Part shown: in pieces, positions 1 to 60,200 of the stretch
Position numbering within the stretch: position 1 is the stretch's first letter
Layout: each line of letters begins with the position of its first letter
NCBI RefSeq assembly: GCF_037392515.1
Contig: NC_090288.1
Location: forward strand, 11,724,969-11,788,968
Direction: 5' to 3'
Origin: Haliotis asinina
Lineage: Eukaryota; Mollusca; Gastropoda; Lepetellida; Haliotidae
Length of the DNA: 64,000 nt
Notes under the pieces: model-generated
What the model was told of the DNA's origin: nothing
Seen by the model: only the letters and a program-made list of their open reading frames with translations
Database searches by the model: none
Translations under genes and position numbers: made by a program

Positions 1-293
1 ACTGAGTCTGGTCCTCAACCTGAGAAAGAGTGTTTCAAAACAACAGAAGAAAAGGAACCAAACAGTTGTTCAAACAGCTTCATCATGTTCAAGTACACCA
101 TGGTATTTGAAGGTGTTGACAATGTAACGAAATATTCTTACCGGCTGCTGAATCAATTTGTCCCTACGCTATTGGAGCCATTATCAGTTGTCATATCTGC
201 AGGTAACACTTGGAGATATGACGAGTGTCACATCCTGTTGTTACATCATGTAGAACTCATCAAGCTGTCCATAACCGCAGCATCGGCGTTACG
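1..293 (+). CDS. Possible partial coding exon entering from the left edge
   Basis: The frame starting at base 1 stays open for 98 codons (TESGPQPEKECF... to ...SITAASALR) and then meets a good splice-donor match, ACG|GTAAGT, at 294, two bases before the in-frame stop would end. No domain is recognisable. A run this long arises by chance now and then in AT-moderate DNA, so the case rests on openness from the very edge plus the donor. If real, the intron would run into the satellite array. I infer this weakly; it could be noise or an old pseudogene. Confidence 0.25.
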
Positions 294-410
294 GTAAGTC
301 CTCTTTGTGTAGTATCTGCATTTGGATGGCAAGGAAGTCAGCGATAGCTTCACGTTAGCTTAAAATGCTTTGTCGACAAAGAAGTCGGTATGACCGTTGC
401 CTTAGCGTAG

Positions 411-3400
411 TCTTGAGATCATTTAAAGGCGAAGGAAACAGTTTTGTCACATCGTTGGCGCTGGATTGAGGTTATTTGATAGCGAAGTGAACAGTATGTT
501 CGTTTTGATAGCACTAGATAAACATCATTTGATGATGAAGTAAACACTGTGTTCGTTTCGATAGCACTAGATTAAGATCATTTGATTCTGAAGTAAACAG
601 TGTGATCGTATAGATAGCACTAGATTAAGATCAGTTGATTGCAAAGTAAACAGTATGATTAAGATCATTTGATTCTGAAGTAAACAGTCTGTTCGTTTCG
701 ATAGCACTGGATTAAGATCATTTGATGGCAAAGTAAAAGGTATGTTCATTTTGACAGCGGTAGATTAAGATCATTTGTTTGCGAAGTAAACAGTGTTTTC
801 GGTTCGATAGCACTAGATTAAGATCATTTGATTCTGAAGTAAACAGTATGTTCGTTTCGAAAGCACTAGATTAAGATCATTTCATTCTGAAGTAAACAGT
901 CTGTTCGTTTCGATAGCACTAGATTAAGATCATTCGATTCTGAAGTAAACGGCATGTTTGTTTCGATAGTACTAGATTAAGATCATTTGATTCTGAAGTA
1001 AACAGTGTGTTCGTTTCGATAGCACTAGATTAAGATCATTTGTTTGCGAAGGAAACAGTATGTTCGATTCGATAGCACTAGAATAAGATCATTTGATTCT
1101 GAAGTAAACAGTGTGTTTGTTTCGATGGCACTAGATTAAGATCATTTGATTCTGCAGTAAACAGTGTGTTCGTTTCGAAAGCACTAGATTAAGATCATTT
1201 GATTCTGAAGTAAACAGTATGTTCGTTTCGAAAGCACTAGATTAAGATCATTTCATGACGAAGTAAACAGTGTGTTCGTTTCGACAGCACTAGATTAAGA
1301 TCATTTGATGACGAAGTAAACAGTGTGTTAGTTTCGATAGTACTAGATTAAGATCATTTGATTCTGCAGTAAACAGTGTGTTCGTTTCGATAGCACTAGA
1401 TTAAGATCATTTGATTCTGAAGTAAACAGTATGTTCGTTCCGATAGCACTAGATTAAGATCATTTCATGACGAAGTAAACAGTGTGTTCGTTTCGAAAGC
1501 ACTAGATTAAGATCATTTGTTTGCGAAGTAAACAGTGTGTTCGTTTCGATAGCACTAGATTAAGATCATTTGTTTGCGAAGTAAACAGTGTTTTCGTTTC
1601 GATAGCACTGGATTAAGATCATTTGATTCTAAAGTAAACAGTATGTTCGTTTCGATAGCACTAGATTAAGATCATTTGATGACGAAGTAAACAGTGTGTT
1701 AGTTTCGATAGTACTAGATTAAGATCATTTGATTCTGAAGTAAACAGTATGTTCGTTTCGAAAGAACTAGATAAAGATCATTAGTTTGCGAAGTAAACAG
1801 TGTGTTCGTTTCGAAAGCACTAGATTAAGATCATTTGTTTGCGAAGTAAACAGTGTTTTCGTTTCGATAGCACTCGATTAAGATCATTTCATTCTGAAGT
1901 AAACAGTATGTTCGTTTCGAAAACACTAGATTAAGATCATTTGATGACGAAGTGAACAGTGTGTTCGTTTCGATAGCACTAGATTAAGATCATTTGAGTC
2001 TGAAGTAAACAGTATGTTCGTTTTGATAGCACTAGATTAAGATCATTTGATTCTGAAGTAAACAATATGTTCGTTTCGAAAGCACTAGATTAAGATCATT
2101 TCATTCTGAAGTAAACAGTATGTTCGTTTCAATAGCACTAGATTAAGATCATTTGATTCTGAAGTAAACGGCATCTTTGTTTCGATAGCACTAGAATAAG
2201 ATCATTTGATTCTGAAGTAAACAGTGTGTTCGTTTCGATAGCACTAGATTAAGATCATTTGTTTGCGAAGGAAACAGTCTGTTCGTTTCAACAGCACTAG
2301 ACTAAGATCACTTGATTCTGAAGTAAACAGTGTGTTCGTTTCGATAGCACTAGATTAAGATCATTTCATGACGAAGTAAACAGTGTGTTCGTTTCGATAG
2401 CACTAGATTAACACCATTTGATTCTGAAGTAAACGGCATCTTTGTTTCGATAGTACTAGAATAAGATCATTTGATTCTGAAGTAAACAGTGTGTTCGTTT
2501 CGATAGCACTAGATTAAGATCATTTGTTTGCGAAGGAAACAGTCTGTTCGTTTCAACAGCACTAGACTAAGATCATTTGATTCTGAAGTAAACAGTGTGT
2601 TCGTTTCGATAGCACTAGATTAAGATCATTTGTTTGCGAAGGAAACAGTATGTTCGTTTCAACAGCACTAGACTAAGATCATTTGATTCTGAAGTAAACA
2701 GTGTGTTCGTTTCGATAGCACTAGATTAAGATCATTTGTTTGCGAAGGAAACAGTATGTTCGTTTCGATAGCACTAGATGAAGATCATTTGATTCTGAAG
2801 TAAACAGTGTGTTCGTTTCGATAGCACTAGATTAAGATCATTTGATTCTGAAGTAAACAGTATGTTCGTTTCGAAAGCACTCGATTAAGATCATTTCATG
2901 ACGAAGTAAACAGTGTGTTCATTTCGATGGCACTGGATTAAGATCATTTGATTCTGAAGTAAACAGTATGTTCGTTTCGAAAGCACTAGATTAAGATCAT
3001 TTGTTTGAGAAGTAAACAGTGTGTTCGTTTCGATAGCACTAGATTAAGATCATTTCATGACGAAGTAAACAGTGTGTTCGTTTCGATAGCACTAGATTAA
3101 AATCATTTGATGACGAAGTAAACAGTGTGTTAGTTTCGATAGTACTAGATTAAGATCATTTGATTCTGAAGTAAACAGTGTGTTCGTTTCGATAGCACTA
3201 GATTAAGATCATTTGATTCTGAAGTAAACAGTATGTTCGTTTCGAAAGCACTAGATTAAGACCATTTGATTCTGAAGTAAACAGTGTGTTCGTTTCAATA
3301 GCACTACATTAAGATCATTTGTTTGCGAAGTAAACAGTATGTTCGTTTCGATAGCACTAGATTAAGATTATTTGATTCTGAAGTAAACAGTATGTTGGCT

Positions 3401-4700
3401 TCGAAAGCACTAGATTAAGACCATTTGATTCTGAAGTAAACAGTATGTTCGTTTCAATAGCACTACATTAAGATCATTTGTTTGCGAAGTAAACAGTATG
3501 TTCGTTTCGATAGTACTAGATTAAGATCATTTGATTCTGAAGTAAACGACATGTTCGTTTCGATAGCACTAGATTAAGATCATTTGATTCTGAAGTAAAC
3601 AGTGTGATCGTATAGATAGCACTAGATTAAGATCATTTGATTGCAAAGTAAACAGTATGTTCGTTTCGATAGCACTAGATTAAGATCATTTGATTCTGAA
3701 GTAAACAGTCTGTTCGTTTCGATAGCACTGGATTAAGATCATTTGATGGCAAAGTAAAAGGTATGTTCATTTTGACAGCGGTAGATTAAGATCATTTGTT
3801 TGCGAAGTAAACAGTGTTTTCGGTTCGATAGCACTAGATTAAGATCATTTGATTCTGAAGTAAACAGTATGTTCGTTTCGAAAGCACTAGATTAAGATCA
3901 TTTCATTCTGAAGTAAACAGTCTGTTCGTTTCGATAGCACTAGATTAAGATCATTCGATTCTGAAGTAAACGGCATGTTTGTTTCGATAGTACTAGATTA
4001 AGATCATTTGATTCTGAAGTAAACAGTGTGTTCGTTTCGATAGCACTAGATTAAGATCATTTGATTCCGAAGTAAACAGTATGTTCATTTTGATAGCAGT
4101 ACATTAAGATCATTTGTTTGCAAAGTAAACACCGTGTTCGTTTTGATAGCACTAGATAAGATCATTTGATGACGAAGTAAACAGTATGTTCGTTTCGAAA
4201 GCACTGGATTAACATCATTTGATTGCAAAGTAAACAGTATGTTAGTTTCGATTGCACTAGATTAAGATCATTTGTTTCTGAAGTAAACTGTATGTTCGTT
4301 TCGAAAGCACTGGATTAAGATCATTTGATTCTGAAGTAAACAGTATGTTCGTTTCGATGGCACTAGATTAAGATGATTTGAATCTTAAGTAAACAGTATG
4401 TTCGTTTCGATAGCACTAGATTAAGATCATTTGATGACGAAGTAAACAGTGTGTTCGTTTCGATAGCAGTAGATTAAGATCATTTGATTCTGAAGTGAAC
4501 AGTATGTTCGTGTTCATAGCACTAGATTAAGATCATTTGATTCCGAAATAAACAGTGTGTTCGTTTTGATAGCACTAGATTAAGATCATTTGTTTGCGAA
4601 GTAAACAGTGTGTTCGTTTTGATAGCACTCGATTAAGATTATTTGATTCTGAAGTAAACAGTATGTTCGTTTCGATAGCACTAGATTAAGATCATTTGTT
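411..4700. repeat. 53-bp satellite array, left block (about 80 units)
   Basis: Units repeat every 53 bases; for example AAGTAAACAG occurs at 1261 and again at 1314. The consensus core is GATTAAGATCATTTG followed by a variable ten bases, then AAGTAAACAG, a short variable step, and TTCGTTTCGATAGCACTA. The variable ten bases fall into a few discrete classes (ATTCTG, TTTGCG, ATGACG before AAG). The left edge, 411 to about 540, is degraded, as array edges usually are. The right edge is cut by the LINE at 4701, and the same phase resumes after it at 10172. No coding capacity is evident. Confidence 0.97.
602..1030. repeat. Block duplicated inside the satellite (copy at about 3604-4050)
   Basis: A run of rare unit variants (GTGATCGTATAG, GGCAAAGTAAAAGG, GACAGCGGTAG, GTTTTCGGTTCG, GGCATGTTTG) occurs in the same order here and at about 3604-4050. 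The rare GGCAAAGTAAAAGG lies at 727 and 3748, exactly 57 units of 53 bases apart. Before base 661 the offset is 19 bases less, because the first copy lost about 19 bases. This is direct evidence of a multi-unit duplication in the array. Confidence 0.85.
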
Positions 4701-6124
4701 CAATCATTTTATCCGGAGGGTTAGGAAGAGAGGCAAAGAAATGGTTTAGTTTTGGGAGGACAAGGGATTTCAAAACAGTTATTCTGCCCAGTGGGGTTAG
4801 GTTTCGAGCTGACCATATTGACATGAGGGATTCGTAATGTCTTAACTTATCTTTGTAGTTCAAATCAATCATTTCTTTAATATCCAGGTCAAATTTTATC
4901 CCTAATAGTTCAAAGTTTCCTTGTTCCCAGTTTAAATTCCACTTCTGACAAAGTTTAATTCTTGAACGTTTCTTTGAGCCAATCCAAATTATTCTAGTTT
5001 TGTCGATGTTGACCTTTAATCCTGAAAAACGGGCAAAGAAAGTTAAGGCTTGGAGCACTGCGTGTAGACAACGTTCTGTTCCATCTAAGGTGCAGGTTGT
5101 ATCGTCAGCAAACTGATTTAGCAGATATTCTACATTGCCTACATGGATTCCTTTTATTTCTGCTTTATTACGTATCATTGTTGCAAGAATTTCAACACAA
5201 AGTATAAAGAGATATGGTGATAATGGGTCACCTTGACGACAGCCCCTGTGTATTTCAAAGCTATCTGTCCCAAAACCGTTTACCAGGACACTCGATTTAA
5301 TATTTTTATAGAAAACCTTTATCCATTGTTTTATTGCTTCCCCAAAATTAAAAAAGGTTAAAGCTTTTTCAATAAACGACCAATCAACAGTGTCGAAGGC
5401 CTTTTCGAAATCTATCAATAATAAAAGTCCGGGAATTTGATATGTATCAGTATACTCAATTAAGTCATATATCTGTCTGGTGATATCCCCTATGTATCTA
5501 CCAGACATAAAGCCTTTTTGATCTTCGTTGATCAGTAAGTTCAACACAGGTTTTATTCGTTTAGAAATTGCCATGGAAACAACTTTATAAAATATTGATA
5601 ACAATGATATTGGACGCCAATTTTTCATAAATTGTCTTGGTTTATTTCCCTTAGGTATACATGTGATAAGTCCCTGTTTTTGTGATACTGATAATTCTCC
5701 ATTTTTATATCCATAATTCAAAGAACGAACCAAATATTTGCCTAAGTCACACCAAAAAAATTTAAGGAATTCTGCGGTGAAACCATCTGCACCAGGACTC
5801 TTGTTATTTTTAAGACATTTTAGGGAGGCAAGAATTTCATCGTTTGTAAGTATACCTTCCAATTTCGCCGCAGCATCACTACTTAACCTCGGAACAGAAT
5901 AGCCTTTAAGCAGATTATCTAAATTTATGTCAGAGACATCATGTTTGCTGTACAGTTTTTGGTAGAACAGTTTTACTTCATTCTCAATGTCAGTTTGGGA
6001 CTCAAGAATACGTCCGTTTGAGTCTTGTAATCTAGAAAAAGATTTATTAAGGAAATTTCTAGATTCCAGTCCCAAGAAAAAAGAGGATGGTTTTTCGCCT
6101 TGCTTACTCCAAGTCGCTTTCGAT
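4701..6124 (-). CDS. LINE reverse transcriptase domain (ORF2 middle part)
   Basis: About 470 codons of reverse transcriptase, from ILRSKATWSKQGEKPSS through SPGADGFTAEFLKFFW, KNWRPISLLSIFYK, GRYIGDITRQIYDLI, IDFEKAFDTVDW, RQGDPLSPYLFILCVE and the catalytic FADDT, to the thumb region LGIKFDLD and LPKLNHFFASLP. The motif set and wording fit the L1/Tx1 group. The domain copies the element's RNA at the nicked target. The reading frame runs on past the element for a few codons into satellite DNA, where it stops at 4681. The remainder of the protein lies in opposite orientation at 8941. Confidence 0.92.
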
Positions 6125-6125
6125 C

Positions 6126-6338
6126 TTAGAATTGAGCCTTGGTTTTAAATTGATATACTTCTTCAAGTTCCTGTTGAATAGCCTTTATTTCGGTGATTAT
6201 TTCCTTTTTAACGGTTTCACTATTAGATTCATCAAGTTGTATTTCTTTTTCATTTAAATTATCAGAAAAATATTTTTCTCTCTTAATTCTTTCCTTTTTT
6301 TGGAAGGATGAGTATTTAATGGTTTCTCCTCTGATCAT
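6126..6338 (-). pseudogene. LINE ORF2 linker fragment between endonuclease and RT
   Basis: A 70-codon frame, MIRGETIKYSSFQKKER... to ...YQFKTKAQF, rich in charged residues and probably coiled-coil. It matches the region between endonuclease and RT of L1-type ORF2 proteins, where an IRGETIKYSS-like block is usual. It is offset by one base from the endonuclease before it and from the RT after it. The frame after it reads ILRSKATWSKQGEKPSS, the expected continuation, so a second single-base shift separates them. Confidence 0.8.
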
Positions 6339-7219
6339 TAATAAGATAGTTTCGAAGAGAAGTTGGATTCTGTATCTACTTTATACTGAGCAACTGTTTC
6401 TGAAATAATATTTTTCACTTTCTTTACATAAATATGGTCTCTTAGTAGAGAGTTATTAAATTTCCAAAACCCTTTGCCGCGTTTTAGATCCGATAGTTTG
6501 AATGTCATTGATATCAACGAGTGGTCTGTTTTGAAGCCTGGTTCTATGTCTGATTGTATAATTGAGGTTAATATATTATGGGATACAAGAAAGTAATCTA
6601 AGCGCGCCTGTTTAAGTGGAGTGGGTTGTCGCCAAGTATATCGCCGGTCGTAGGGGTTCATTTCACGCCAGGCATCAACGAAATCTAAATCTTCTTTTAA
6701 TTGTACAATTTGGTCTCTGGCCTTAGAGTTATTCATATGCTTATAATTGAATGTGTCAATAGAGAATTCTTGTACAGCGTTCCAATCTCCACATAAAATC
6801 ACATGGTCACTTTGAAATCTTTCTATTTTTTGCTTAAGGGATATATAAAACTCTGCATCGTCATTGTTTGGACCATAGAGGTTAACAATAGCGAGTTTAT
6901 AGCTATCTAAATTCATTTCAATTATAATCATATTACCATTTTCGTCTGTAGTTATCCCTTGCAACTCAAAGTCTAGCCATTTAGAGCATAAGATTGCTGC
7001 GCCACGAGAATTACTCCTAAAGGAACTAAAAAAGCAGTTTTTATTTCCCCATTCATCCCGTATTTTAATTTCCATATTTTCCGTGAAGTGTACATCATGT
7101 AGGCAATAAATGGATGCTTTTTTACGTTTTAGAAATGTAAACAATTGTTTACGCTTAAGTTTATCATTTATACCCCTACAGTTTTGTGATATAATTTTTA
7201 GTTTATCCGCCATTGTCAA
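6338..7219 (-). CDS. LINE apurinic endonuclease domain (ORF2 N-terminus)
   Basis: A 293-codon frame holding an exonuclease-endonuclease-phosphatase type domain. It nicks target DNA to start target-primed reverse transcription. Visible motifs in order are [48 protein letters not shown] and KTDHSLISMTF. These match the metal-binding and catalytic blocks of L1-type endonucleases, with D where many relatives have E in the HDVHF block. The likely start is the ATG of MADKLKIISQNC, near 7213. The frame ends early at SSKLSY; the next frame continues ETILLMIRGETIKYS without a gap, so a one-base shift broke it. Just upstream lie the 5' monomers and no ORF1. Confidence 0.85.
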   Translation of the reverse strand: MTMADKLKIISQNCRGINDKLKRKQLFTFLKRKKASIYCLHDVHFTENMEIKIRDEWGNKNCFFSSFRSNSRGAAILCSKWLDFELQGITTDENGNMIIIEMNLDSYKLAIVNLYGPNNDDAEFYISLKQKIERFQSDHVILCGDWNAVQEFSIDTFNYKHMNNSKARDQIVQLKEDLDFVDAWREMNPYDRRYTWRQPTPLKQARLDYFLVSHNILTSIIQSDIEPGFKTDHSLISMTFKLSDLKRGKGFWKFNNSLLRDHIYVKKVKNIISETVAQYKVDTESNFSSKLSY

Positions 7220-7379
7220 TAATATTCACATTAGACGTAGTGGATTGTAGCAAGGTACTAGTGATTACATAGTGGTATCTACAAAGGCATGTCAAAGGTA
7301 TTGTTTCAGCACATCTTGCTATCAAAGGAGAGATTGTGATATTCAACATGGTAAAAATGGAAACAAGAATATATAAAAC

Positions 7380-8940
7380 AACGAAAATATCAAAGATCAA
7401 CCGGTCGGTTGTAACAGCCCGCAACCCACGGGTAGTACGAATAGTATCGGAAGGTGGAGCCCATCTGGTTTTTGAAAGGGAAAGTGGAGTCTAACATTTC
7501 ATAACTGGGAAGATAATTTGGTGAAACAGTGTTAAAAACAATTACTATTGGTTGTAGCAATCCGCATCCCGTAAACCACGAGTATTAAAGCAGAGTAGTA
7601 GTAGTGGAACATATCAAAGGTTTTGTTGAGCACCTTTGGTTTATCAAAATGAGGTAGTGATGATCAGCATGAACAATACAAAACAAGATTGATATTACCT
7701 GCATCGTTGTGCAAGCAGTGCCCCGTGAACCGAAAAGAAGGCCATAATTGTCGCATGTTACAGATAGACATAATTCGGTAGAAACAAATACATAAACAGA
7801 TTACTATTGTCTGGTTTTTGTATCAAGTCACAGCTCGTAAAACGCAGGTATTAAAGTATTTGTCCACTTACATGCATCGATACTCACTACGTGTGCTCCA
7901 ATATATGTTCCATACAATCATAAAATCAGACAGAGGAGATACTAAACATTCAGAGCCAAGAAAAGCACGTCTCCTCAAGTAATCGCGCCACGTGTCCCTA
8001 GCTAGAGAAAACACGCTGCTGCTCTGAGCCCGAAAAGCACATAAGATCGAACACGATGACCGTGCAACTAGTTATTGAAATGTAATACAATACACAAGCA
8101 TCTCGGTAAGAGCAATAGAAAGGCAAAATTAATATTGTCTGCTTGGTTGTGCAAGCAGTGCCTCGCGAACCAAAGAGGTCATAATGATCGGCATGTTATA
8201 GATTGAGACATAATTCGATGGTAAGATAAATACAAGAACAGATTACTTGTCTGGTTAGTTGTAGCACACAACTCGTAAAACACAGGTATTTTAGTACTTG
8301 TTCACTTACATGTATCGATACTCACTGCGTGTGTTCCAATATATGCTCCATACAATCGTAAAGTCAGACGGAGGAGACACAAGACATTCAGAGCCAAATG
8401 AAGCAAATAATCGCGCCACGTGTCCAAAGCTAGAGAAACACACTGTCGCTCAGAGCGCGAAAAGCACCTAAGATCGGACACGATGGTCGTGCAGCTGGTT
8501 ATAGAAAGTTCACATTTATTATACACAGGCATGGCGTTAAGAACAATAGAAACACAAAATTAATACTGTCTGCTTGGTTGTGCAAGCAGTGCCTCGTGAA
8601 CGGAAAAGGAGGTCATAATTTACGGCATGTTATAGATAGAGACATAATTCGGTAGAAACAAATACAAAAGCAGATTACTATTGTCTGGTTAGTTGTAGCA
8701 CGCCACAACTCGTAAAACAGGTATTTAAGTAATTGTTTACTTACATGTATCGATACTCACTACGTGTGCTCCAATATATGTTCCATACAATCATAAAATC
8801 AGACAGAGGAGACACTAAACATTCAGAGCCAAGTAATCGCCCCACGTGTCCCAAGATAGAGAGACATATTGCCGCTCAGCGCGTGTGAAAAGCACGTGAG
8901 GTCGAACACGATAACCGTGCAACTTATTATATAAATGTAA
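7380..8940 (-). promoter_or_regulatory. LINE 5' UTR made of tandem about 430-bp monomers
   Basis: Three clear monomers repeat head to tail. The landmark GCAAGCAGTG lies at 7711, 8151 and 8582 (steps of 440 and 431), and CACGTG lies at 7989, 8417 and 8843. Two more, degraded, show as GGTTGTAGCAATCCG near 7550 and GGTTGTAACAGCCCG near 7400. They sit directly upstream of the endonuclease frame on the minus strand. Tandem 5' monomers with promoter activity are known in mouse L1; a promoter role here is inferred from position and from the repeated CACGTG E-box. The outermost monomer is cut at the internal junction at 8940. No ORF1 is present in this stretch. Confidence 0.7.
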
Positions 8941-10175
8941 GGATTTGCAAGGTAAATGTTTCCGATTTATATGGGGGAACAAACTCGATAAGGTGAAACG
9001 TGATCAATTAATATGTACTGTAAAAGATGGGGGTCTTGATGCACCAAATATTAAAGAAATAATGCAAGCTCAAAAAATTTCCATAATAAGACGATTTTAT
9101 AATAACCACACCAAATGGTGTAATCTCTTTTATTGAAAATTTGCCTAAACTGGGATCTGCAACGATCTTCGAATATAATTGTCCAAATCTTAGAAACATT
9201 ATCAATCCACTTGTAAGAAACAACTTCTACTGTGATGGGATCTACTGGTGGGATCTACTATCCGCAGATGGGGCAACAAATTCACAAAACATTACCTCTC
9301 ATTTTATTTCGTACAATCAAAATATTTTTATCGATAAGAAAACTATATTTTACCGAAACTGGAATGCAAAAGGTGTAATATTTATAAACGATCTCCTGAA
9401 TGACTCTGGAAATTTCTTTTCTCGAGATATCTTTGAAAATAAATACAATGTAAAAACAAATTTTCTAGAATATTCAGGTGTAATAAACTCAATTAAAACA
9501 TTCCTCAAAAGAAGAAATATTAGCTTAGAAACAATTAGGAAAAAACAAAACCCTTTGCAACCATATATGTTAAACCTTTTGAATAGGCAAAAACAAGGCA
9601 GTCAATTATTTTACAGGGCCCTATTGGAATCAAAATCAATAAAAAATCAACATTGCGTAAAATGGAATAGAATTCTAGAGAAAAATATTGATACAAACTA
9701 TTGGCAACAATACAACCATATCCCCTTCCGTTGTTCTGAAGATACCTCTCTGCAATGGTTTCAATACAAACTCTTGCATCATATTTTACCAACAAAAAAT
9801 AGACTCTATAAGATGCAATATGTTGACAATAACCTGTGTAGCTATTGTTCGGCTTCTAAAGAGACAATAACACATTTATTTTACGACTGTAGCAAGGTTA
9901 GTCACATGTGGCGAAATCTTCAAAACTGGCTCAACAAAAACCTCGAGGCAAATTTAAAGTTCACTAAAAAACAAATTCTGCTTGGATTCGACCAGAAAAA
10001 TAATGACCCAATCAACATAATTCTTATTCTTTTCAAAAAGATTATCTTCGACTGTAAAACATCCAAACAGATGCCAACTTTTCGGTTTTTACAACTGGAA
10101 CTTAAAACATATTATGAACTAACAAAATATTCAGCTGCGATATGTTCAAAAATTGATCACTTTTATAAATTTTAA
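8941..10175 (+). CDS. LINE ORF2 C-terminal part with zinc knuckle (sense-oriented piece)
   Basis: The plus-strand continuation of the LINE protein. Codons from 8945 read LQGKCFRFIWGNKLDKVKRD and GGLDAPNIKEIMQAQKISII, the usual block following the RT thumb. A one-base shift near 9130 ends this frame after WCNLFY; the next frame resumes FIENLPKLGSATIF and runs 344 codons. The C-terminus has the C-x2-C, H-x4-C knuckle typical of this group (CSYCSASKETITHLFYDC, then a W). The stop codon TAA at 10173-10175 is not in the element: it is formed by the first bases of the satellite. There is no 3' UTR or A-rich tail. Confidence 0.9.
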
Positions 10176-11045
10176 GATCATTTGTTTGCAAAGTAAACAG
10201 TATGTTCATTTTGATAGCAGTAGATTAAGATCATTTGTTTGCAAAGTAAACACTGTGTTCGTTTTGATAGCACTGGATTAAGATCATTTGATTCTGAAGT
10301 AAACAGTATGTTCGTTTCGATGGCACTACATTAAGATCATTTGATTCTTAAGTAAACAGTGTGTTCGTTTCGATAGCACTAGATTAAGATCATTTGATTC
10401 CGAAGTAAACAGTGTGTTCGTTTTGATAGCACTAGATTAAGATCATTTGATTCTGAAGTAAACAGTATGTTCGTTTCGATAGCACTAGATTATGATCATT
10501 TGAGTCTGAAGTAAACAGTGTGTTCGTTTTGATAGCACTAGATTAAGATCATTTGATTCTGAAGTAAACAGTGTGTTCGTTTAGATAGCACTAGATTAAG
10601 ATCATTTGATTCCGAAGTAAACAGTATGTTCGTTTCGATGGCACTACATTAAGATCATTTGATTCCGAAGTAAACAGTATGTTCGTTTCGATGGCACTAC
10701 ATTAAGATCATTTGATTCTTAAGTAAACAGTATGTTCGTTTCGATAGCACTAGATTAAGATCATTTGATTCCGAAGTAAACAGTGTGTTCGTTTTGATAG
10801 CACTAGATTAAGATCATTTGATTCTGAAGTAAACAGTATGTTCGTTTCGATAGCACTAGATTATGATCATTTGAGTCTGAAGTAAACAGTGTGTTCGTTT
10901 TGATAGCACTAGATTAAGATCATTTGATTCTGAAGTAAACAGTGTGTTCGTTTAGATAGCACTAGATTAAGATCATTCGATTCTGAAGTAAACAGTATGT
11001 TCGTTTAGATAGCACTGGATTACGATCATTTGATAGCAAAGGAGT
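10172..11045. repeat. 53-bp satellite array, right block (about 16 units)
   Basis: The same 53-base unit resumes in the phase in which the left block stops, so this is one array split by the LINE. Within it, a seven-unit block is duplicated: GATTATGATCATTTGAGTCT occurs at about 10487 and again 371 bases (7 x 53) later. The array decays after about 11035 into unrelated sequence. Confidence 0.95.
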
Positions 11046-11587
11046 TGATATTATCGTTATGTCAGTATTTGCATTGTTTCGTATGATAAAGACACGTGGC
11101 TTGACATATTTACCCACACTGTATTACTTTTGCTTGAATAATGCGATAACTAACTCTCATAACATTGTTTCGGCCGAAATCCGTATACCGCTTTTGTTAA
11201 AGTTCATGTTGACTTTATAGTGAATATTGGTCTTACAACTGTGTTCTAAGGGCCATGTTGTCTGAATTTCGAAATAGACTTATATTGATTGTTAAGGTTA
11301 AGGTTGTTGCACAGGGCCGAAGTTGACAAGACTAAACTGATTAACCGGTTGATTCCATGATAAATCGATTGACTGACTGCGTGATTGGCTGATTTGCTGG
11401 CTGACTGGCTGACTGACTGACTGACTGACTGACTGATTAACTGAAAAACAAAACACAGAAACATGTCATCTGTTTTACAATTGATACGAGCTGGAAGTGT
11501 TTTAAAACTGAACACTTGTTACAGAGCGTAACCAATAATCTCTAAACACTATTATCTCTACTGATTATAACTGATTGATATTTTCAG
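11046..11587. other. Non-coding stretch between satellite and first chitin-binding gene
   Basis: It holds a GACT/GGCT microsatellite at about 11385-11440 and otherwise no recognisable gene. The promoter and a non-coding first exon of the gene at 11588 are expected here, but I could not identify a convincing TATA box or donor. Confidence 0.5.
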
Positions 11588-11656
11588 GCTACACTCGAAC
11601 ATAAAAGATCACGATGCTTCGTGTCTTCATTGTGATGGTGATTACCATGGTAATGT
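11588..11656 (+). CDS. Chitin-binding gene 1, exon with start codon and signal peptide
   Basis: An acceptor (TTTTCAG at 11581-11587) is followed by 26 untranslated bases, the ATG at 11614 and 14 codons of hydrophobic signal peptide, then ATGT|GTAAGT at 11656/11657. The acceptor implies a further, non-coding exon upstream. Coding begins at 11614. Confidence 0.7.
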
Positions 11657-14092
11657 GTAAGTTGGAAATTATCACTTCTTTCTTTAAAATGGGCGGTAGG
11701 GCAGCCAAGTGGTTAAAGCCTTCGCTCGTCACACAGAAGGCCCGGGTTCGATTCCCGAAACGGGTACAATGTGTGAAGCCCATTTCTGGCGTCCCCCGCC
11801 ATGATATTGCCGTGAGAAGTGGGTGAGCTTGGTTTATGTTCGAACATAAAGGACTGAAAGGGTGATTGACGATGTGATTGGGGAGTGAGGAGCTGAGGCA
11901 CTGGTGGGCCTTGATAATTTATGTTGAGAAGAGGGAAGATGGTGAGGGCTGCGCTGCTAAGCGTTTATTGTTTTATGGCGAGAGGGGAGCTGTGATGACG
12001 AGAGAGTGCAGTGATGAAGAGAGGGTGTAGTGATGGCGCGTGTGATGCGGTGATGGCAAGAGAGGTGCGGTGAGGGCGAGAGATGTACGGTGATGTCGAG
12101 CGTTGCAGTGAGTGCAAGTGGGGTGCGGTGATGGCGACAGGGGCGTAGTCAGTACAAGAGGGGTGTAGTGATGGCGAGAGGGGTGCAGTGAGTGAGAGAG
12201 GTTTCGATGATGGCGACTGGGATGTAGACTAGTGAGTGTAAGAGGGACTGAGTGATGGTGATGGGGCTGCGGTGATGGCGAGTGGGATGTGATGGCGAGA
12301 GGGGAGGTGTGATGGCAAGAGGGTGCAGTGACGGCGGGAGGGGTACGGTGACATCTAAGAGGGTGCGGAGATGGTGAGAGGGGTGCGGTGATTGTGACAG
12401 GAGTGCACTGATGACGGGAGGTGTACGATAAAGGGGAGAGAGTGGCTGTGATATCGAGGGGAGTGCAGTGATGTGTAGAGGGGTGCAGTCATTGTGACGG
12501 TTGCTCTGGTGACGAGAGGTGTACGATGAGGAGGAGAGGAGTGCGGTGATATCGAGAGGAGTGCAGTGATGTCTAGAGGGGTGCAGTGATGGTAAGAGGG
12601 GTGCAGTGATGGTGAGAGGGAAGCTGTGATGTGAGAAGGATGCTGTGAGGGTGAGTGAGGTGCAGTGAGAGCGGGAGGACTGCGGTGATGTCGAAAGGGG
12701 CGCAGTGATTGTGAGAGGGGTGCAGTGATGGCGGGAGGGGAGCGAGAAGGGTGTTGTGAGGTTGAGTGGGGTTCGGTGATGGCTAGAGGTATGAGGTGGT
12801 AAGAGGTCCAGGATGGAAAGACTTCAGTGTCTTCGCTCACAAACTCCCACTTTCCACTTACTCCAGCATCAGCTGTAATCACACCAACAAGCGACATGAA
12901 CCCCATTTGCAGCACGACGACGGAGACGCTGATACCCCACCCCACTGATTGCGCCCAGTACTACAACTGCAGCGCCCCCGCCAAGACATTCTACAGCTAC
13001 CTTAGAGAAAAGAACCTACAGGAATGTCCCTACCCACAACTGTACAACACTGACACTCGGAGATGTGAGCACTACAGCATGGTCAAGTGTGGCAACAAAT
13101 TTGAGCCCCTTGGTGTATGTAAGTAGCCTGTTCTCATTTATTCTTCTTGGTAGAAAGCAAGCGAATGAGCTAAGTCCATGCATCAGTTGAAAAAAGTGAC
13201 ACAGGCATGACAGAATAACACGCGCAACAGGCGACTAAGTGGATCGGGTGGTCAGGCTTGGTTGATCACTGGGTTATCTGGTCCAGACGTGAGTATTTAC
13301 AGCCCGTCACCTTATAACTGGAATATTGCGGCGTAAACTAAAATCACTCACTCACTCACTAAAGACGAACCCCTATTTTGGGAAGTGACGTATTCCTTGA
13401 CATAACCATATAGAATGTTTTGAGTGGGGCGTTGAACAACAAACAAAATAGCGAGTGGGTGAGTGAGTTCAGTTTAACGCCGCGCTCAAAATATTCCAGC
13501 TATATAGCAGCAGTCTGTTCATAACCGAGTCTGGACCAGACAATCCAGTGAACAACAGCATGAGCATTGATCTGCGCAAATGGGAACCGATGACATGTGT
13601 CAACCAAGTCAGCGAGCCTGACCACCCGATCGCGTTAGTCACCTCTTACTACAAGTATTGTCGTCTTTTGTGGCAAGCATGGGTTGCTGAAGATCTATTC
13701 TACCCCGGACCTTCACGGGTCACAAACGAAATAGAACACACAGGTTTTAAATAGTTAGTGCCAATGCTGACTGATTTACTGACTGTGTTTTTTTCAAGAT
13801 TCGGGCTACTAGACCCACACATAATACATTCTTGACGGAGCCTTACAGTCACAATACAGGAGAAAAACCTCCATGTACTTTAATATCAGCAACAATTACT
13901 TACATTCACCAAAAGGTATCTTATATAGCTCCATATTTAACTTAAGGTCTAGTAAATATTACAATAATTTAAGGGCATTGTTACGCTATAAAACACAAAG
14001 CATAACTTACCCATTGAAACAGCGTCTGGTGCAATATTGAAGAAAACGTGACAGAATACATGTACTTTGTAATGGCAACGCCATTGAGGGTG

Positions 14093-19220: not shown

Positions 19221-21470
19221 CTGTTGGTTGAAAGAATATTAATTTTGAGCTCATTATATTATTATCTTAGTGCTTGCAACTCATTTCAGGTTATGTCACA
19301 ACTAGCTAACTTTGACCGATATACAGATCTGTAAACTTGTAGACTACAACGCTTTGGTTCCAGTTTCTCACCACGTTCTTCATGGGAATCACCATCAGGC
19401 GCGTAGCAAGGCGTTACAGACTATGCTTGTACGTGGTTATGTTAGCCTACAAAGATACCCACATGTTTGAAAGAACGTTGTAAGTACGAGGGCTGGTCAA
19501 AAAGTTCTAGGCCTACATAACTTCTAGACTGGTGGCACTAACTAATCTTATAAGTGTTGTTGGACAGTGTTCTTCATTTCTAGTTATTATACTCCAATAG
19601 ATCACCTAGTCCTTGAAGCATATTGGGGTCTACATGCGAGTACACTGTGAGAGATGTTGAGGACTGGAGTTCTGATTTTACATGACAATGCTTCGTCTTA
19701 CACCTTTCGATTGGCAAAGTCTGCAGTACATCAATGTGACTTCAAAGAACATCCTCATCCCCTATATTCGCTGACCTGGCCCCAAGCGACTTTCACCTAT
19801 TCCCAAAACTGAAGGAACGTCTCCGTGGAAACCGTTATGCCGGTAGTGACGAACTCAAATCTGCTGTACTCATATCTATACCCCAGTGTACTTCAAGGAG
19901 TAGTTGATGAGGAACACTGTTCAACAACACTTATAAGATTAGTTGGTATCACTGGTCATCTAGTGATCTAGGCCTAGAACTTTTTGACCAGCTCTTGTAT
20001 GATGGGACGTTTCATTCACTATCAAAATACATTCACTATCAAAATATTAATGCGTTCGTTCTTTATCTGTATATCCTCTTATTAATGTAAATATCCTTTT
20101 AGAAACGAAAAATATATTCATCTACCCGAACGACCTGCTAGAACTTGCCTCAAATACCCGAAGTTTCTTAGCTACATGTATTATGCTGTTGTACCCCAAA
20201 ATACGGTCACATTTCTGATGTCTTCCGCCAGGATATTGCAGGAGTATTGCTAAAAGCGGCGTAAAACCCCACTCACTCACTCACTCGAACAACCTCGAAC
20301 AAACCGCAACTAATCACCAGGAGTCCCACACGTCACTGTTATCAGTCTTCTCATGTTTTAGGGTATACAGTAGTTGAAATAGAATTAACTTACATGGGGC
20401 TTTTGGTATGGGTCTGCCATCGCAATACTTCTCAGCAGACCGGAAGTCCTCACAGTGACCGGATATGACGTTGAAAAGGTCCGGATATGTGCATTCCCGT
20501 GCCACAGTCTCAGCACCCTCGCTGCAGTCATAATACAAAGCGCAGCTCTGGGTGGAGGGGTAGCGCCCTTTCGCGGTCAGGCGACAAAACTCATTCCAGC
20601 GAACTGCCAAAGAAATTGTAGATTAAAGAAGGTTTGCATTCTCATAATAATTCCATAACTGGGACTGTAATGTTTTTAAATGGGACTTGTTCACCAGATG
20701 CTCGGACTTTCCACTGTGAAATGTTAAAAAAAACCTTAGGTCTGTGTATGCTTGAGAGCAAATTCATTTGAAATTTCACCTGTTAACGCGGTACTTTGTA
20801 CTGCCGTCATGTTTGATATGAGAAATATGAAATTATTTACACGTTTTTGGGTGCTTTTCAACTCCAGTGCAATACCTGCGAGCCATATAAGCTAATTAAG
20901 TTAATCAAATGCAAAAATAATGTAAAGCTGCTCCCAAGAAAAACATCTTGTATGGTTATATCAAGGAGCATATACTGTATTAAAGTACAGTTTCGTCTTA
21001 TAACCAACGTATATATTTGTATACACGTTATGTAAAAAGAATATACTGTTTTTAACACGGCAGCCATATCTATTCATATCTATATCTTTCATGGATAATG
21101 CATATGCCCTACCTTTCTCCTGTCGTTTACACTCGGCGCGGTCCATCACACAGATGGGTTCCTGCAAACCGGTGACAGTTCTGGCATCCAACGGGCACCT
21201 GCTCCAGTAAGCTGAATCTCCAACACACCGGACATACCCAGTACAGGCCCAGGGGAGGAGAAACATGACACCGTCCTTACCCCTACACAGGTAGTTCAGC
21301 TCGGGGAAGGGGAGGCCTGGTCCCCCGGGGTAAACGTGGGGTTGGCTGGCCGGCGGATCCACGTATTTCGTGAGGGGATACATGTACTTGACAGCGTCTG
21401 TGGTCATCAGCAGAACGCTGAGGGCAAGGAGATGGAAGGTGGTTAATCCTAGACTTTCGGTGGCGGTCAT
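18976..21470 (-). CDS. Secreted chitin-binding (CBM14/peritrophin-A) protein, 270 aa, three coding exons
   Basis: Coding exons are 21113-21470, 20394-20603 and 18976-19220, all with canonical splice sites and phase 1 introns, giving 270 residues. Residues 1-26 are a signal peptide (TTFHLLALSVLLMTTDA). A first chitin-binding-like module has cysteines at 62, 76, 82, 92, 107 and 114. The second is a clear peritrophin-A domain with cysteines at 126, 140, 146, 157, 170 and 180. The third module starts at C190 with CDYQALNITC and ends CPDGMFFSPFCSRC. Modules two and three match the whole mature part of the 175-residue protein at 11614-14785, including the intron that splits the codon of the first cysteine of the last exon. 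A proline-rich linker (residues 31-55) precedes module one. The protein is probably extracellular and binds chitin; its tissue is unknown. A deleted mariner sits in intron 2. Confidence 0.87.
19487..19997 (+). mobile_element. Deleted mariner element with long terminal inverted repeats
   Basis: It is bounded by TA at 19485-19486 and 19998-19999. The ends read GGCTGGTCAAAAAGTTCTAG and its inverse, and the similarity continues inward for about 110 bases (both contain AACTAATCTTATAAGTGTTG). The centre retains the end of a mariner transposase: ILHDNAS, then HPHPLYSLT, then a SDFHLFPKLKERLRG-like stretch spread over shifted frames. At 511 bases it has lost most of the gene. It lies in intron 2 of chitin-binding gene 2. 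Confidence 0.85.
20205..20287 (+). mobile_element. SINE tail fragment
   Basis: GATGTCTTCCGCCAGGATAT to GCGGCGTAAAACCCCACTCA matches the 3' half of the tRNA-derived SINE. The tRNA head is missing. It lies about 110 bases from the central exon of chitin-binding gene 2. Confidence 0.65.
20394..20603 (-). CDS. Chitin-binding gene 2, exon for the central CBM14 domain
   Basis: The acceptor TTTCTTTGGCAG precedes 20603 and the donor CCCCAT|GTAAGT follows 20394; phase 1 on both sides. It encodes VRWNEFCRLTAKG to PIPKAP with the full six-cysteine domain. Confidence 0.87.
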
Positions 21471-21501
21471 CTTGATCGGCTTCTCGCTTAAGATGGTGTT
21501 T
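21113..21501 (-). CDS. Chitin-binding gene 2, exon with start codon
   Basis: The acceptor TTGTCACTAG ends at about 21502, followed by about 31 untranslated bases and the ATG at 21470. Coding covers residues 1-119 and ends AAAG|GTAGGG at 21113. It carries the signal peptide and the first cysteine module. Confidence 0.8.
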
Positions 21502-21529
21502 CTAGTGACAAGAATAGAACATAAGAGTA

Positions 21530-21660
21530 CGTGAGTGAGTTAGGTTTTACGCCGCTTTTAGCAATATTAAAGCAGAGGGACACTGGAAAAGGGCTTCACA
21601 CAGTGTACCAGTGTGAGGAATCGATCCCAGATCATCGGCATAGGATTGACGCAAACCCGT
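21530..21660 (-). mobile_element. tRNA-derived SINE, minus copy
   Basis: GTGAGTTAGGTTTTACGCCG begins the tail, then GGGACACTGGAAAAGGGCTT, and GGAATCGATCCCAGATC is the inverted B box. It lies just upstream of the start-codon exon of chitin-binding gene 2, in its 5' intron. Confidence 0.75.
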
Positions 21661-57200: not shown

Positions 57201-60200
57201 GCTTGTATGTTGGACCCTCCCTACAAGGAAATGTCATTTGGAAAGTCAGCAACAAAGAGAGACAATCGTTCATTAGTCAAGGACAGTCTTGACAATAGTA
57301 GTGTAAATCCTTCACTGCTTTTTGAACATCACATCCCTTGATTATATATTTCAAAAGTCCTTAACTCAAGCATGATTTAGCACACATTTCCAGTGTGCGT
57401 GCGTGCGTGCGTGAGCGAGCGAGCGAATGAGCGGAGCGTCGCATTCATCAATATTCCAGTTATATGGCAGCAGTCTGTAAGCAATCGTGTCTGGACCTGA
57501 CAATCCAGTGTTCAACAGCATAAGCAACTGGGATATGATGGTGTCAGACAAGTCAATGAACCTGACCACCTGATCCTATTACTTGACAAGCATGGGTTGC
57601 TGAGAACCAATTCTAACCCCTGATCTTCACAGGACTTAAAGTGATATGGACTGGTGAGACATAGGATTGCCAAATTCTAGGATTATCTGTTTGAATCTCT
57701 GTCCAGCTTCATAATGTTTCTCGGAAACTTGTCACCGGACTTGTGTTTATGGATTTGGTAAAAGTGGTAAATGTCAGGAAATGGTACTTCTTCAAACTTT
57801 CCTTCCTCATTAAGAGGTCGCATGATGAAATTGAATTACCTTTCAAGGCAATGTTACATCCAATTCACTCACACACACTGAAAACACTTCAACTATTTAT
57901 TTCCCTCCAATTTGGCCCAGCATTTAACAGCACATACACCCAAAAACACTTTTTCACCAAATATATTGTATAAAAGCTTTTCCACTGTCAAAACGTCAAA
58001 CAATTTTTAAATAATTCACACTACTCTGAAATAATGAAATGCATTGAAAACCCATCAACAACTTTAGCTCAGATATAAAGTTAAATGTTTCTAAATGTTT
58101 ATGTGCATCCACACATGACTCATATGTCAAAAGAGATTGTAAACCAAAAGTTACTGTGTTCTGTAATCTGATTGGTTGAAAAACATGATTAAATGGTATT
58201 AGATTCCCGGAAACTGAAAGACTATTCACCGCGTATTGACACGTAAACAATTGTTTTGTTGTGTCATCAACAGTGGTGACGTCATTCAAATCATCTTGTG
58301 ACGTAAAGTTAGAATGACGTCACAAATGAGCAACTCCAGATGCTACCATGGGAACCAGCTGAAACGGCCAGCTGATGACACTTCACTGCTGTATCTGTAT
58401 TCGATGTAAACGAGTGCAGACAGTAAAACCCTTTGGTTTACTTTTGTGTTTACAATGGAGATAAACATCATGTGTTGGCCAATTTCCGGGTGTTATTGAG
58501 TATTTGAAGCATGGGAATGTTCCAAATGCATTCCCGTGCTTCAAATACTCAATAACACCCGGAAATTGGCCAACACATGATGTTTATCTCCTAATTTGAA
58601 CCCATGCTCATGCTGTTGATCACTGAATGGTCAGGTCCTGACTTGATTATTTACAAAATGCTGTCATGTAGCTGGAATTTTGCTGAGCATGGCGTTTAAC
58701 AACAAACCAACCAATCTGCTTTGGTGTGTATGGTTATCTCATGCCCAAATACTATTCTTGCCATTGAGGACACATGAAGATCAGGGTTAGAATTGATCTT
58801 CAGAAACCTATGCTCACTGACCTGGTTGACAGATGTCATCATATCCCAATTGCCTAGACTGATGTATAGTCTGGTTCATAATTATTGAGAATTTTTCTTC
58901 TTACTTTGAGCTATCCTAACACCTCAACTGATTCACTGATACTTAAAACTAAGTAATGGTATAAGGGAGGTAACTCATCTTGGCCTACTGAGTATAGTAC
59001 AATTAGAGTTACCTCCCCTGAATTTGTAGCAGACGTCATTTTCCTCAGCACTGTCAACAATGTCTGCTGAAGATAAAAGAAGGTTGATTTTTGAGATGTG
59101 TAATCAAGGAATTGATGATGTAAATACATTGGCAGAGAGAACAGGAACTCCTCTTTCTACTGTGTATAGGATTAGGAAGAATTTTAAAGAGGGAAAGGAT
59201 TTTGGGCACCAGAAAGGAGCAGGGAGACCCAGAAAACTGGACTTCTCAGATCGCGTCCGCCTGGGAATTTTAGCGTCTAAAAAGCAAAGGGCAAGCATCT
59301 CCAACATCAGGTATGAAATGATAGAAAGGGGATCAACAGTTGTATCAAAATCTACAGTTAGAAGAAATTTGATTGATCTTGGATGGGAGAAAAAGACTGG
59401 AATTCCTTCTCCTCTCATGAAACAAGAACATAAAGACAGGCGTGTTGAGTGGTGTTTGGCACATGAAAACTTTGACTGGGAAAATGTGATTTTTACTGGT
59501 GAAAGCTCAATATGGGTATATCCCAATAATGTGAAAATATGGACAAAGTCTGCGTCAGCACCGTTGTATCGACGACCTAAATACAGCCCAAAGTTTCATG
59601 TATGGGGAGGGATATCCTTATTAGGAACGACCCCGCTGTGTGTGTTTGAGGGAAATCTGACAAGTCAACGCTACACTAACATATAAGATAATTTTCTCCT
59701 TCCAAGTGCACATGTGTTTTATGGAAATGACTGGATTTTGCAGCATGATAATGATCCTAAACACACCGCAAAACATGCCAAGCAGTGGTTTCAGGAGAAA
59801 AATGTGACTGCATTACCATTTCCTGCATATAGTCCTGACTTAAATCCCATTGAGAACATTTGGGGGATGATGAAGGAATGTGTGAATCAAAAGGAGTTGA
59901 CAAAAATTGAAGACATGAAGAGAGAAGTGGTCCGATACTGGGACAGCATAACTCACGAGACACTAACCTCTCTGATAGGAAGTATGCCTACCCGTCTTAG
60001 ACTGTGCCGTGAAGCGCAAGGAGACTTGATAAAATATTAAATTGTTACCTACACAACATGAAAAGGTCAGTTCACTTTCACAATACATTCAATTTTATCT
60101 GATTTGTTCTCGTTTACAAATATGAAATGCTTTAGCTATTCTCAATAATTTTGAACCATACTGTACATGCTGTTGATCAGTGGATTGTCTGGTCCTGACT

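Follow-up and report, generated by a model that had tools for sequence, protein, structure and literature searches.

A young copy of a long interspersed nuclear element (LINE) lies within a 53-bp satellite array in a 64,000-nucleotide stretch of the 1.14-Gb genome of the gastropod Haliotis asinina (contig NC_090288.1, C9:11724969-11788968; hereafter the window). It consists of two opposed pieces of one element which adjoin without other DNA between them, the 5' piece being inverted. The inverted 5' complementary DNA (cDNA) occupies 4700..8940 on the minus strand, carries the endonuclease, the reverse transcriptase (RT) and repeats that in other copies stand between the first and second open reading frames (ORF1 and ORF2), and reads in sense from 8940 to 4700, up to ...ATGATTGA. 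The non-inverted 3' cDNA, on the plus strand at 8941..10173, encodes the C-terminal part of ORF2 with its zf-RVT domain, starts with GGATTTG and ends with ...TATAAATTTT. At the inversion junction (8940..8941), where the truncated 5' end faces the start of the plus piece, a 1-base microhomology (A) is seen by eye. This arrangement probably results from twin-primed reverse transcription of one L1-superfamily RNA at one staggered cut in the satellite, with both primings internal to the RNA.

The opposite orientation of the two pieces is evident from their reading frames. The APE-type endonuclease frame (Exo_endo_phos, PF03372, above the Pfam cut-off; 6338..7225) and the RT frame (RVT_1, PF00078, likewise above the cut-off; 4681..6144, its last codons falling in the target satellite) are on the minus strand, and the C-terminal frame with zf-RVT (PF13966, above the Pfam cut-off; 9090..10175) is on the plus strand. 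The plus piece and the RT piece were searched against the same genome. The plus-piece search gave at least 47 matches, of which those with at least 95% identity correspond to the present locus and at least 21 other loci, the number of relatives being a lower bound as 40 of 48 candidates were scored. In the RT-piece search (40 of 131 candidates scored), matches of at least 94% were confined to the present locus and to members of the same set of relatives. Twenty relatives were fetched together, a further one (L029) was added as the 21st, and L031 represents a more distant copy. Three relatives (L024-L026) have common flanks and two (L028 and L029) a common structure, which leaves about 18 distinct insertions besides the present one. 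The former three, on two small contigs (C25 and C32) and in the first 90 kb of C13, represent one 5'-truncated copy together with its flanks, and may be due to either a segmental duplication or an unplaced haplotype.

The breakpoint is spanned by 15 of the 20 relatives, each with an unbroken ...AAAATGATTGA GGATTTGCAAGG..., the other five (L023-L027) starting downstream. Over 38 bases 13 of these 15 are identical, with one substitution in L018 and two in L028. The added relative is also collinear at this point, so that 16 of the 21 close relatives span it and all 16 are uninterrupted; the distant copy is likewise collinear, with identities of 77% and 67% on its two sides. The gap between the pieces on the family sequence is thus 0 ± 1 base, with neither loss nor duplication, the margin arising because base 4700 could be part of the target and base 8940 part of one piece or the other. 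These results bear out the original prediction, made from the sequence of the window, of a minus-strand piece and a plus-strand piece meeting with almost no loss, and the breakpoints fall well inside the distance of about 20 bases on the family sequence which it had proposed as a check. An inversion inherited from the source element was rejected, as it is absent from every other fetched copy. The inverted 5' piece is about 98% identical to its collinear relatives.

Both pieces share variants with the same few relatives, in a comparison from which L014 and L017 were left out as poorly aligned. In the left piece five variants are common to all of L012, L018 and L021 (one also being found in L009 and L022), a sixth is common to these three plus L013 and L016, and a seventh is shared with L018 only. 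In the right piece three variants are common to all of L009, L012, L018 and L021 (one also in L022), and a fourth is shared with L009 only. Judged from these variants, left and right pieces carry the markers of one subfamily.

To the left of the insertion, the satellite array extends over 413..4700 (81 anchors, 77 of 80 spacings exactly 53; 657-4698 by Tandem Repeats Finder), and to the right over 10172..11034 (17 anchors, 16 of 16 spacings 53), the two flanks joining in 53-bp register. A 15-base direct repeat, TTAAGATCATTTGTT on the plus strand, borders the element at 4686..4700 and 10172..10186; base 4700 doubles as a base of the LINE family, and the TT at 10172-10173 belongs to the LINE as well, a 2-base microhomology seen by eye. 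A duplication of 10-15 bases, at the 5' end or no more than 11 bases away from it, was found in 11 of the 18 relatives covered (the 20 except L022 and L028), these 11 being 9 distinct insertions. The other seven have short or misplaced matches of 5-10 bases; the comparison was made without a shuffle control. A repeat of 13-15 bases at the present locus fits the duplication size of the family. A bottom-strand cut at GATCTT/AATC would be similar to the TTTT/A(A) site that PMC12016303 gives for the L1 endonuclease. At the left junction ATCATTT occurs on both sides (window 4691-4710), once in the target and again a few bases inside the LINE, a pairing which could have helped the overhang to anneal to the RNA or could be due to chance. 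Tx1-type L1 relatives can be site-specific, and an insertion targeted to the satellite was considered; it was rejected because the flanks printed for the 20 other copies are, by eye, not 53-bp satellite.

Both outer ends of the copy are truncated. The inverted piece ends at the start of the repeat array (about position 1206 of L013), and is without about 1.2 kb that include the leader and ORF1. The plus piece ends 137 bp upstream of the family tail, with about 10 codons still to go to the usual ORF2 stop; it is without the last codons, the 3' untranslated region (UTR) and the A-tail, a loss that the original prediction did not mention, and runs directly into satellite TTAAGATC with the TT shared. 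The motif spanning this 3' end point is intact in 18 of the 20 relatives, L022 and L028 being without it. A TAA at 10173-10175, with which the target provides a stop codon, was dismissed as a side effect of the 3' truncation, the frame of L017 running about ten codons further. In view of these ends, two statements of the original prediction have to be revised: the inverted part does not reach into 5' monomers, as the repeats are inter-ORF and in four relatives the element begins about 1.2 kb upstream of this point, ORF1 preceding the repeats, and the copy is not nearly full-length, as L013 and L010 measure about 7.0 kb and the present copy is without ORF1, about 170 bp inside and the 3' end.

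From the two pieces, the zero gap, the truncated ends and the common subfamily, all of which are observed, we infer the following course of events, including the order of priming, the endonuclease cut and the use of a single RNA. The bottom-strand primer, set free by an endonuclease cut, would have begun synthesis within the RNA at ...AAAUUUU, some 137 bases short of the usual tail, and its cDNA would have been extended over 1.2 kb to ...|GGAUUUG. The top-strand overhang would then have primed exactly beside the point where the bottom strand stopped, at ...AUUGA|, and its cDNA would have been extended over 4.2 kb toward the 5' end, halting where the inter-ORF repeats begin. Finally, a head-to-head junction over a microhomology of 0-1 base would have linked the two cDNAs; by eye, the microhomologies at the junctions are only 1-2 bases long. 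That the plus piece, too, was primed inside the RNA and has no tail suggests a broken template. The LINE RNA may have been cut at UUGA^GG and UUUU^GG, each target DNA end copying one fragment from its 3' end, a version which we favour tentatively, in view of the zero gap and the missing tail, and which taken by itself is possible but still rather doubtful. Both RNA breaks are followed by GG, a coincidence that carries little weight with two cases. A broken RNA most simply explains the zero gap together with the missing tail, which a single locus cannot show.

Several observations weigh against twin priming. The direct piece does not begin from the A-tail, its end being about 137 bp short of it, and a missing 3' UTR and tail are not expected of canonical twin priming. 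No second inverted copy was found, the pieces above 100 bp lying on a single strand in each of the 20 relatives and likewise in the 21st. The inverted structure itself was read from the assembled sequence. Private substitutions amount to 16/2870 in the left piece and 16/1230 in the right piece, an excess on the right (Fisher p = 0.019). Nine of the right changes fall in two tight clusters (window ~9237-9244 and 9302-9310), and when these are dropped the right piece has 7/1230 = 0.57%, against 0.56% in the left piece; the removal of the clusters was decided after seeing the data. A private divergence of about 0.6% indicates a young copy. Lastly, the 15-base flanking repeat is weak evidence in a 53-bp array, because any phase offset in such an array yields a direct repeat. 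Of the claim that the flanking repeats restore a satellite unit, what holds is that the 15-base repeats are present and that the flanks are in register; as support for an insertion, this counts for little in a tandem array. Twin priming nevertheless stands as the best mechanism, given the zero gap and the shared subfamily, in the form of an event truncated at 5' and 3' and not of the canonical tail-primed one.

The missing A-tail, the 3' truncation and the short microhomologies would also be accounted for by endonuclease-independent capture. In this case the satellite would have suffered a double-strand break, RT would have filled it by copying fragments of LINE RNA from either end, and what looks like a 15-bp duplication would in truth be a loss of 38 bp from the array with the register unchanged. 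Tail-less or 3'-truncated insertions are indeed classed as non-canonical in a study of 1,019 genomes (PMC12350158). The register is equal for a gain of 15 and a loss of 38 bases, and cannot separate a 15-bp duplication from a 38-bp target deletion, only base 4699 being informative. At this position T follows TTTG in 17 of the 80 complete left units and in 2 of the 17 right units, including the junction unit itself, and the match of this minority T to the right flank argues for a duplication. The repeat of 13-15 bases, which is the usual duplication of the family, argues in the same direction, and we therefore regard break repair as unlikely.

Zero internal loss is what would be expected of a simple inversion, and a collinear truncated copy might have been inserted first and had its 5' part inverted later by DNA rearrangement. 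One of the two breaks would have to hit within about 1 base of the LINE/satellite border, because no satellite base is found inside and no LINE base outside. Moreover, of three inverted-repeat pairs (at least 20 bases, positions 1-14000) none lies at the two breaks; within the LINE there is a weak pair at 6269-6325 and 9633-9689 (57 bases, 70%). A later inversion is thus improbable. An assembly error is more improbable still: tandem arrays assemble poorly and the assembly is the one source for this locus, but the borders of the inverted part are the exact border of element and target and one internal point, not repeat edges, and the contig measures 66.3 Mb. Dual priming, with a different RNA on each strand, as proposed for human L1 in PMC2837659, would likewise yield two opposed cDNAs and would suit the higher private rate of the right piece if the clusters are kept, but we give it hardly any credence, as the end of one independent RNA would have to coincide by chance, to the base, with the start of another and both pieces carry the markers of the same subfamily.

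Among known systems the closest to the twin-primed copy is the 5' inversion of human L1. According to PMC12016303, such inversions make up from 18.4% (germline) to 21.9% (somatic) of insertions, their ends lie within 20 bp in 132/287 cases (46%), and the germline medians are 1363 bp for the total length and 751 bp for the inverted part. The present copy shares with them an inverted 5' piece facing a direct 3' piece, a 13-15-base flanking repeat, short microhomologies, one subfamily and a near-zero gap; it differs in having no A-tail or 3' UTR, in its size, with a total of 5.47 kb and an inverted part of 4.24 kb, and in its host, a mollusc with a 1.14-Gb genome. By this comparison the zero gap is ordinary, because so large a share of human inversions lies within 20 bp, contrary to the rarity implied in the original prediction, and the length, the host and the missing tail are the less usual traits. 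With non-canonical or endonuclease-independent L1 insertions, as described in PMC12350158 and PMC2912911, the copy has in common an internal 3' priming, the lack of a tail and microhomologies of 1-2 bases, whereas the flanking repeat of normal length and the full 5' inversion set it apart. Cell assays reported in PMC4245944 recovered inversions from L1 in human cells and from one insert of Nimb-2_DR, a non-L1 LINE, in DT40 cells, which shows that inversion also occurs with other elements and hosts; that insert came from an assay, whereas the present copy is a resident genomic element of the L1 superfamily. Within the collection of papers searched, none combined twin priming with molluscs, and in PMC5389967 twin priming occurs in the reference list only.

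The locus clearly exemplifies an insertion accident that is already known. It provides a young LINE inversion resolved to the base, with 16 uninterrupted relatives as reference, and would extend to a non-mammalian host a process studied mostly in mammals. Taken jointly, a zero gap and a missing tail can separate priming on intact RNA from priming on broken RNA, and a single locus proves neither; if the broken-RNA version is true and general, tail-less insertions should show an excess of zero-gap inversions.

Regarding the identity of the element, the best phmmer structure matches of the RT are LINE-1 ORF2 chains (among 8c8j, 9k6g, 8uw3, 8sxt and 9hdo; E 1e-60 to 6e-60), R2 proteins coming next at 1e-22, and on this similarity we assign it to the L1 superfamily. 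Four relatives (L010, L013, L017, L021) have a common start base, with start-to-tail lengths of 7000 bp in L013, 6933 bp in L010, 6532 bp in L017 (with an internal deletion) and 8606 bp in L021 (with an internal insert). The family order is a leader of about 0.2 kb, ORF1, a spacer of about 2 kb, ORF2, a 3' UTR of about 0.1 kb and an A-rich tail. Before the repeats, L017 has an open frame of 254 amino acids, which is a candidate L1-type ORF1 and which is broken or shorter in L010, L013 and L021; Pfam matches of the frame in this region are weak and below cut-off. The present copy contains about 2.7 copies of a 438-bp repeat (7671..8832, minus strand) that lies between ORF1 and ORF2 in the longest relatives. 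Nearly three such tandem repeats are found in the inter-ORF spacer of L013 (~3142-4404, sense numbering) and L017 (4057-5348); in L013 the array is visible by comparing copy against copy, Tandem Repeats Finder having reported no array there. Repeats were unexpected between the ORFs, and one might guess that they act as an internal promoter for ORF2.

Two internal changes were noted. At 7590..7605 on the minus strand about 170 bp are deleted with respect to other copies, eight relatives (L010, L011, L013, L015-L018 and L021) having 156-184 bp extra at this place. The deletion lies near window 7598, at CCACTACTA/CTCTGCTTTAATAC with an extra CTA, and is not found in four aligned relatives; splicing as its origin was rejected by eye, the edges being without the usual splice sites. 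The segment at 9222-9265 is scrambled, the CTCCTGAATGC of the relatives shown (with one change in L021 and a gap in L019) being replaced by an apparent copy of the nearby GGGATCTACTGG, which looks like template slippage or gene conversion, and a second small cluster of changes occurs at ~9302-9310.

In the window as a whole, Rfam and tRNA searches gave no matches. A frame at 59030-59686 has matches to a Tc-type transposase and a helix-turn-helix, and a minus-strand frame at 20961-21539 a weak match to chitin-binding peritrophin-A, in both cases below the Pfam cut-offs.

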